32,752 nucleotides of DNA. Source: Citricoccus sp. WCRC_4 (lineage in GTDB: Bacteria > Actinomycetota > Actinomycetes > Actinomycetales > Micrococcaceae). A program made the position numbers and the translations under genes. Each line of letters begins with the position of its first letter. The stretch's first letter is position 1. The stretch is taken from NCBI GenBank assembly GCA_026645375.1, contig JAPFFX010000389.1, positions 1 through 32,752 on the forward strand. The letters run 5' to 3'. The notes under the pieces were generated by a model that was not told the DNA's origin, made no database searches, and saw only the letters and a program-made list of their open reading frames with translations. Shown piece by piece: positions 21,455 to 24,042 of this stretch.

Positions 21455-21566
21455 TCGCGGAAAAGTCCAATCTGGGTGGGTCGACGGGCGTGGCCGATAT
21501 GGCGTGGCGTGCGGCCCGGGCCCTATGCTAGTACTACGAAATTCGTGGCTGGAGGAGGAGGCAGCG

Positions 21567-21935
21567 ATGCCGTTGTCTGAGCGGGAGCAGAAGCTCCTGG
21601 AGCAGCTGGAACAACAGCTGAACGCCGAGGACCCGCACTTTGCCACGAGCATGAGTGAGACGGGAACCACTCGCTTCTCGACCTCGCGACTGGTCGCCGG
21701 TGCGGTGACTGCGGCGGTCGGCCTCGGAGTCATGCTCTGGGGAATCTCCCAGCAGGCCATCTGGCTGGGCATCATCGGCTTCGTCCTGATGGCCGTCGGC
21801 GTCTACGTCGGGACGGCGCGGACCAAGGCCGGTTCAGCGGGGCGCGCGTCCGGTACGGCATCGGCCAAGAAGAACTCTGCTTTCATGAACGGACTGGAGC
21901 AGCGCTGGGAACAGCGCCGCCATCAAGACCCGTGA
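21567..21935 (+). CDS. DUF3040 domain membrane protein
   Basis: MPLSEREQKLLEQLEQQLNAEDPHFATSM followed by two TM helices. GGAGGAGG Shine-Dalgarno. Confidence 0.9.
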   Translation: MPLSEREQKLLEQLEQQLNAEDPHFATSMSETGTTRFSTSRLVAGAVTAAVGLGVMLWGISQQAIWLGIIGFVLMAVGVYVGTARTKAGSAGRASGTASAKKNSAFMNGLEQRWEQRRHQDP

Positions 21936-21969
21936 GCGTGGCAGCAGCCTGTCACGACTGATTCACCCG

Positions 21970-21996
21970 GGACCCCGTCGCATCGCGGCGGGGTCC
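21970..21996 (+). terminator. Rho-independent-like terminator downstream of the DUF3040 gene
   Basis: GGACCCCGtcgc-atc-gcggCGGGGTCC stem (about 12 bp with one G-U pair), followed by TCTCGTTGT. Confidence 0.7.
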
Positions 21997-22006
21997 TCTC
22001 GTTGTC

Positions 22007-22069
22007 CCCCACTTCCCTCCACCGGGCCGCCCCACTTCCCTCCACCGGGCCGCCCCACTTCCCTCCTCC
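22007..22069 (-). repeat. Three tandem 23-bp-period repeats carrying inverted mraZ-operator-like boxes
   Basis: ccccacttccctccacc at 22007-22023 and 22030-22046, with one mismatch at 22053-22069. The reverse complement GGTGGAGGGAAGTGGGG matches 16/17 of the mraZ operator at 22222-22238. Confidence 0.8.
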
Positions 22070-22216
22070 CCGGCCAACACGGTGGGACCGTCGCCCCTGA
22101 CCACCCCGGGGGCCGGAGGGGGTCGGCGGTCATCCGGGGACGACTCTGAGTGGGGCATTCGCAATATCCTCCCATGTCAGAGCCCGTTTCACGCCACGAC
22201 GAAGGGGTCGTGTGGC

Positions 22217-22268
22217 TTGACGGTGGAGGGCAGTGGGGTAAAGTGGAGGACATCAGAGGATGGTGGTG
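22217..22268 (+). promoter_or_regulatory. mraZ/dcw promoter with 10-bp-phased MraZ-type boxes
   Basis: TTGACG (22217-22222)-N16-TAAAGT (22239-22244). GTGGAG 22223, GTGGGG 22233, GTGGAG 22243, degenerate TCAGAG 22253, GTGGTG 22263. Confidence 0.7.
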
Positions 22269-22315
22269 TTGAGGGAGGCTCAAGCGGCCCTTTCGGACGG
22301 CAAAGGCGGTGCTCC

Positions 22316-22747
22316 ATGTTCTTGGGGACCTACACGCCTCGGCTGGACGAGAAGGCCCGTCTGATCCTCCCGGCGAAGTTCCGCGAGGAGCTAGCCGACG
22401 GTCTGGTCCTCACCAGGGGACAGGAGCGGTGCATCTACGTCTTCAGTGCTCGTGAGTTCGAGAGGGTTCACGAGCAGATGAGGTCGGCTCCGCTGTCCTC
22501 ACGCCAGGCCAGGGACTACATCCGCGTCTTCCTGTCAGGCGCCTCCGACGAGGTTCCGGACAAGCAGGGGCGGATCACCATTCCGGGACCGCTGCGCAAC
22601 TATGCGGGACTGGACCGGGACGTGGCGGTCATCGGAGCCGGTACGCGAGCCGAGATCTGGGATGCCGAGGCCTGGAACTCCTACTTGGAGGACCAGGAGA
22701 ACGCCTTCTCGGAGACCGATGAGGAAGTCCTCCCGGGGATCTTCTGA
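22316..22747 (+). CDS. mraZ: Transcriptional regulator MraZ
   Basis: [43 protein letters not shown]...[26 protein letters not shown]. Confidence 0.96.
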
Positions 22748-22840
22748 CCGGCCGGTCCTCCGCCCTCCGGCGGCCGGGGCGGCGGACACAACCGAACAGC
22801 GCGGATTCTTGCATGAGACCTCCAGCCGCCCCAGGCCGGA

Positions 22841-22924
22841 CCTGACCCGACTTCCCCTGGGCCAGGCACGGAACCGGTGAGCGATTCCGGCCCTGACCCG
22901 ACTTCCCCCGGGCCAGGCACGGAA
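22841..22924. repeat. Two 33-bp direct repeats (51-bp period) between mraZ and rsmH
   Basis: cctgacccgacttcccc[t/c]gggccaggcacggaa at 22841-22873 and 22892-22924, 32/33 identical. Confidence 0.85.
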
Positions 22925-23046
22925 GACGTGCGGATGGGGATCTGATCCAAGGGTCCGCCTGTCACTTAATGGGGTCCTCTGCCGTCGCGAGCCGGACGGG
23001 GACCCGTGGAACCGGACGAGGTCGAGCGTGGAAAGGGACACACGGC

Positions 23047-24042
23047 TTGGGTGAAGAGCAGAGACCGGCACAGGACCGGCACGTTCCCGTCATGCGCGAC
23101 CGCGTCCTGGACCTGCTCTCCCCGGGACTCGACGCTGCCCGCGTCGCCGGGCGCCGTCCCGTAGCCCTGGACGGCACCCTGGGCATGGGGGGACACGCCG
23201 AGGCGATCCTCCGACGGCACCCGGACGCGGTCGTCGTGGGGATCGACCGGGACACCGAGGCGTTGCGCCTGGCGGCCGAGCGCCTGGCGTGGGCCGGGGA
23301 CCGCCTGCGGACCTGGCACGGGACCTATGACGGTGTCGCCGAGGCCCTGGCCTCGGCCGGTTTCGCCGAGGCGGACGCCATGCTCTTCGACCTGGGCGTC
23401 TCCTCGTACCAGCTGGATGAGCGGGAGCGCGGTTTCGCCTACTCCTACGACGCGCCGTTGGACATGCGCATGGACACGACCGGGGGGATCACCGCCGCCG
23501 ACGTCGTGAACGAGTACGACGAGGACCGGTTGCGCCGGATCATCCGGTCCTGGGGTGAGGAGAAGTTCGCCGGCAGGATCGCCTCGGCCATCGTCCGCGC
23601 CCGCCAGGACGCGCCCTTCGAGACCACTGGCCGGCTCGTGGAGGTCATCCGTTCGGCCGTCCCCGCCGCTGCCGGCCGCAGCGGCGGGCATCCCGCCAAG
23701 CGCACGTTCCAGGCCCTCCGGATCGAGGTCAACGAGGAACTCGACGTGCTCGAGGAGACGCTGCCCGCAGCGATGCGCGCCCTGTCAGTGGGCGGGCGGC
23801 TCGTGGTCATGAGCTACCACTCGCTCGAGGACCGGATCACCAAGAAGGCCATCACGGCACAGTCCACCTCCACGGCGCCCCCCGGATTCCCGGTCGAACT
23901 GGAGGAACACGAACCGGTGGTCCGGGTCCTGACTAGGGGCGTGGACAAACCCACGGAAAAAGAAATCGAAGAAAACCCTCGCGCCTCCTCAGCAAAAGTG
24001 CGCGCCATTGAGAAGATCAGACCATCAAGGAGCACAGCATGA
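23047..24042 (+). CDS. rsmH: 16S rRNA (cytosine1402-N4)-methyltransferase
   Basis: [69 protein letters not shown]. The TTG start is inferred; the ORF is open further upstream. Confidence 0.92.

Follow-up and report, generated by a model that had tools for sequence, protein, structure and literature searches.

An inverted array of MraZ-type boxes upstream of a Citricoccus dcw promoter as a candidate auxiliary operator

Upstream of the dcw promoter of Citricoccus sp. WCRC_4, a short tandem array on the minus strand repeats the boxes of the mraZ operator in inverted orientation. We propose that this array, at positions 22007–22069 of the 32,752-nucleotide stretch analysed here (the window), is an auxiliary, distal MraZ operator. 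From it, MraZ would bridge to the operator at the promoter, and the resulting loop would strengthen autoregulation; we give this reading a probability of roughly 0.6. In the proposed mechanism, MraZ would bind the three plus-strand promoter boxes as well as the inverted box pairs of the distal array. Since MraZ forms ring-like oligomers, one oligomer, or two in contact, could engage the two sites at once and thereby loop the DNA between them, making autoregulation of the dcw promoter stronger. In Mollicutes, the MraZ bound to its site is described as an octamer, and the MraZ chains with solved structures in the PDB comprise four distinct sequences. Repression of dcw by MraZ is reported for both E. 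coli and M. genitalium (PMC8475190), and lac repression loops of 6–8 turns function in cells (PMC5081198).

The repeat finder TRF reports a tandem repeat of period 23 at 22007–22066 (2.6 copies, 100%). Copies 1 and 2 (22007–22029 and 22030–22052) are identical, and on the minus strand each consists of GTGGAGGGAAGTGGGG, one base off the proximal mraZ operator, plus a 7-bp linker. Their box pairs, at 22007–22022 and 22030–22045, read GTGGA GGGAA GTGGG G. From 22053, the operator-like part of copy 3 matches the others except that its first box is GAGGA in place of GTGGA. Thus, what an earlier note on this DNA took for a three-copy array is two perfect units and one degenerate unit (GAGGAGGGAAGTGGGG, pair at 22053–22068), with two intact pairs and one degenerate pair of GTGG-type boxes at ∼10-bp spacing. 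That note's basic observation of a 23-bp, operator-like array on the minus strand is real, and its match of 16/17 positions between GGTGGAGGGAAGTGGGG in the array and GGTGGAGGGCAGTGGGG in the proximal operator (plus strand, 22222–22238) was reproduced. Across the array the boxes are spaced 10-13-10-13, which makes each 23-bp period a box pair 10 bp apart followed by a step of 13 bp, more than the plain repeat of about two helical turns that the note suggested. An Rfam search of the window returned no match.

The first gene of the dcw cluster, mraZ, lies at 22316–22747 on the plus strand (PF02381, E = 3.8e-35). Its promoter, on the same strand, has a consensus-matching −35 hexamer, TTGACG (22217–22222), and a −10-like hexamer, TAAAGT (22239–22244); TTGAC is kept before the operator in most relatives, and the −10-like hexamer is kept in relatives too. 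The proximal operator (22223–22248, plus strand) overlaps this promoter and is the only operator to do so. It comprises three GTGGR boxes; with the third, GTGGA at 22243, all three lie 10 bp apart. The array lies ∼150–210 bp upstream of the −35 hexamer, and because it neither overlaps nor adjoins the mraZ promoter, we name it an auxiliary site rather than the operator itself. The upstream neighbor is a DUF3040 gene (21567–21935, plus strand; PF11239), and between it and the array lies a 12-bp G+C-rich inverted repeat (21970–21996, plus strand), a possible terminator hairpin for which the terminator scan made no call. Roles for the array as an MraZ sink or in terminator read-through, also suggested earlier, gained no positive evidence.

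Inverted pairs recur far beyond this genome. We gathered mraZ upstream regions from the Micrococcaceae, from other families of the order, and from the wider class. Across 96 non-redundant Micrococcaceae regions we counted 400 minus-strand GTGGR boxes, where dinucleotide shuffles give 138.6 ± 9.2; minus-strand pairs spaced by 10 bp number 73, against 0.7 in shuffles, and plus-strand pairs are absent. The initial GTGGR definition gave a puzzling 7-bp spacing; the 10-bp pairs include a GTGGT box, and the definition was widened to GTGGN. Under this definition, 122 of 157 actinobacterial regions (18 families) have at least one inverted 10-bp pair upstream of the operator, where shuffles predict 3.9, and direct pairs are near chance (3 of 157, 0.7 expected). 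At Micrococcaceae loci, inverted pairs reach 4.56 per kb between −330 and −60, compared with 0–0.13 per kb elsewhere. The distal consensus equals proximal boxes 1 and 2, and the sequence between boxes differs across the families that carry inverted pairs. The 10-13 rhythm is also seen in families f6, f11, and f22, the last of which looks like Mycobacteriaceae. Within the wider class, inverted pairs are present in f22, f71, f75, f77 (in part), f78, f79, f81, f82, f88, and f89. The mraZ-bearing families f73, f74, f76, f80, and f83 have none, which counts against the proposed auxiliary operator. In f80 (L225, L226, and L235), extra direct GTGG boxes lie on the plus strand upstream of the operator, a possible alternative layout.

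A further element, TGACCTGCG, comes after the near inverted pair across many families (L169, L152, L127, L176, L230, and others), at −54 to −56, −64 to −67, or −77/−78 from proximal box 1. The window does not contain it, and few Micrococcaceae do. We would give even odds to the broader proposal that many actinobacterial dcw promoters carry an old second set of MraZ operators, inverted, with helically phased near sites and often with TGACCTGCG, on which an MraZ ring would build a looped complex controlling division genes.

It is useful to set this arrangement beside known systems. MraZ operators in E. coli, Mollicutes, and Burkholderia are short G-rich direct repeats of ∼10-bp period that adjoin the dcw promoter and are bound by oligomeric MraZ (PMC8475190, PMC5282649, PMC7761207). 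The boxes in the window are likewise G-rich with a ∼10-bp period, but the loci analysed here have an additional set, upstream of the promoter, that is inverted and often paired. In Burkholderia, by contrast, MraZ binds only one half of the upstream region and leaves the upstream half unbound; the arrangement is therefore not general to MraZ. Looping auxiliary operators are known from lac (O1–O3), ara, and gal. Like those systems, the dcw loci have extra upstream operator copies, and the near sites of relatives are placed in step with the DNA helix; in the window, the second copy stands at a distance, has 16/17 identity, and is confined to this part of the genome. The differences are the ring-forming MraZ as the protein, the multi-box arrays, the fixed inverted orientation, and a loop that here we infer. 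Distal MraZ sites were not described in the literature searched, a collection with few subscription papers and no bioRxiv preprints. If the broader proposal is correct, it adds a layer of dcw regulation undescribed for any MraZ in that literature. MraZ is among the most widely conserved bacterial regulators, and a conserved second, inverted set would give its ring a job, namely bridging two DNA segments. Moreover, actinobacterial dcw promoter constructs cut just upstream of the −35 hexamer would miss part of the control region.

Looping is favored by the helical positioning of near sites in relatives. As the near pair of a region we took the pair closest to proximal box 1 if it lay no more than 130 bp away, with its downstream CCAC as coordinate. 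In the 157-region set, near pairs occur at −63 to −66 (18), −75 to −78 (45), −85 to −89 (5), −94 to −98 (9), and −106 to −109 (4), and none occur at −67 to −74, −79 to −84, −90 to −93, or −99 to −105. These positions fit a period of 10.84 bp best (R = 0.73, p ≤ 2e-4 against uniform placement). Relatedness was handled by collapsing duplicates only. Counting each family-position once gives R = 0.72 and p = 2e-4, and counting each position once gives p = 0.0014. When fitted to the Micrococcaceae, period and phase also predict the positions in other families (p = 8e-5). In the larger class set, a few near positions (−91, −114, −117, and −122) lie within the gaps or past them. Far clusters, by contrast, are weakly phased. 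Their phasing looked good in the order-level set, weakened once the class was added, and had no phase in common with the near sites of the larger set, and it was set aside.

The window array belongs to this far class, with downstream CCACs at −181 and −204 from proximal box 1. The window has no near pair and a tripled far cluster, and this short tandem cluster may compensate for the missing pair. Thus, the phasing argument backs the class of sites rather than the window array, and the array's place in the weakly phased class is a point against our reading. The earlier suggestion of an auxiliary, looping operator accordingly draws support from near sites in relatives and little from far clusters like this one. 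Helical positioning relative to the promoter would be equally expected if MraZ on the distal sites had to occupy one DNA face, acting on RNA polymerase directly as from an upstream activating site. Weakly phased far arrays, in turn, would fit sites that raise the local MraZ concentration; neither route needs bridging. We consider such direct or concentrating action unlikely. An activating MraZ would not match the repression of dcw reported for both E. coli and M. genitalium, and the near sites, ∼60–80 bp upstream of the −35 region, are probably far for direct contact.

That MraZ itself would read the distal boxes is suggested by covariation within the Micrococcaceae, where the second boxes, distal and proximal, covary at their fifth base. 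The distal base is G in 64% of regions with proximal GTGGG, compared with 10% of those with GTGGA (p = 7e-7, or 3e-4 after GC regression, both uncorrected for kinship). Outside the Micrococcaceae, covariation is mixed, and the disagreement of f6 and f14 weighs against an MraZ-bound auxiliary operator. Family f21, which looks like Streptomycetaceae, has no MraZ match in 10 genomes. Its loci (L298–L307) keep a dcw-type promoter, TTGACC...GTGGACTAAAGT, before rsmH, with one box left and no box pairs of either orientation. Loss of the pairs along with MraZ is consistent with MraZ as reader, but it is not decisive because the five mraZ-bearing families named above also lack inverted pairs. The distal boxes might instead serve another regulator of GTGG sites, such as a second activator or a partner recognizing the adjacent TGACCTGCG. 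The company of TGACCTGCG with near pairs in many families would suit this idea, as would the binding of MtrA to the Dietzia mraZ promoter. We nonetheless judge it improbable, given the near-identity to the MraZ operator with its 10-bp direct spacing, the Micrococcaceae covariation, and the near absence of the boxes elsewhere in the genome. Furthermore, Micrococcaceae keep the boxes even though TGACCTGCG is rare there.

The nearest named relative found, Citricoccus sp. CH26A (MraZ 99% identical), has the same three units, with GTGG boxes intact in two and a third that is also degenerate (ATGGA). Like the window, it has no near pair, and its far cluster is a short array. Its spacer reads GGGAT in every copy, compared with GGGAA in the window. 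Thus, in a conservation check set beforehand, the GTGG boxes proved to be kept although a spacer base had changed in every copy. Together with the inverted pairs in many families, the three units kept in CH26A bear out the description of the array as a conserved, inverted, and distal set of MraZ-like boxes. Arrays with different spacing occur in other congeners, for example, 12-bp repeats in L014 (which matches C. zhacaiensis, L037). One Arthrobacter-like mraZ region, with 81% MraZ identity, sits on a contig (L082) whose label reads Vibrio cholerae strain 35D, which is probably contamination or a mislabelled record.

Within genomes, the sites are largely confined to this locus. Allowing at most one mismatch, GTGGAGGGNAGTGGGG has four matches in the 3.39-Mb genome, all in this stretch, and its reversed control has two in the whole genome. 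In eight congeneric genomes, GTGGAGNNANGTGGGG has six matches, all at mraZ as judged against mraZ coordinates, five distal and inverted and one proximal. Across 39 related genomes, we found six instances of the 10-13-10 double unit (reversed control, 0); four of the six are inverted and no more than about 400 bp upstream of mraZ, one in another family (G058). These counts bear on the possibility that the window array might be a neutral minisatellite, or that a pyrimidine-rich composition gives it its likeness to the operator. Copies 1 and 2 are identical, as after a recent tandem duplication, and the CH26A spacer base has been homogenized between copies. Such an origin is nevertheless very improbable: boxes, orientation, spacing, and location are conserved across families whose inter-box sequence differs, and the boxes occupy a single place in the genome. 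Compositional noise is disfavored by the excess over dinucleotide shuffles, the strict 10-bp spacing, and the single orientation.

Finally, it is hardly credible that the inverted boxes serve as operator for a minus-strand promoter driving an antisense or divergent transcript, which their orientation by itself would fit, since no promoter-like site was found on the minus strand at 21500–23100 (in a scan that actinobacterial promoters need not match), no divergent gene adjoins the array, the DUF3040 gene being on the plus strand, and the distal consensus is without the TAAA seen between proximal boxes 2 and 3.

On the other side of mraZ, the mraZ-rsmH gap of the window contains a direct repeat at 22836–22924, with two 38-bp copies that are 95% identical and 51 bp apart.
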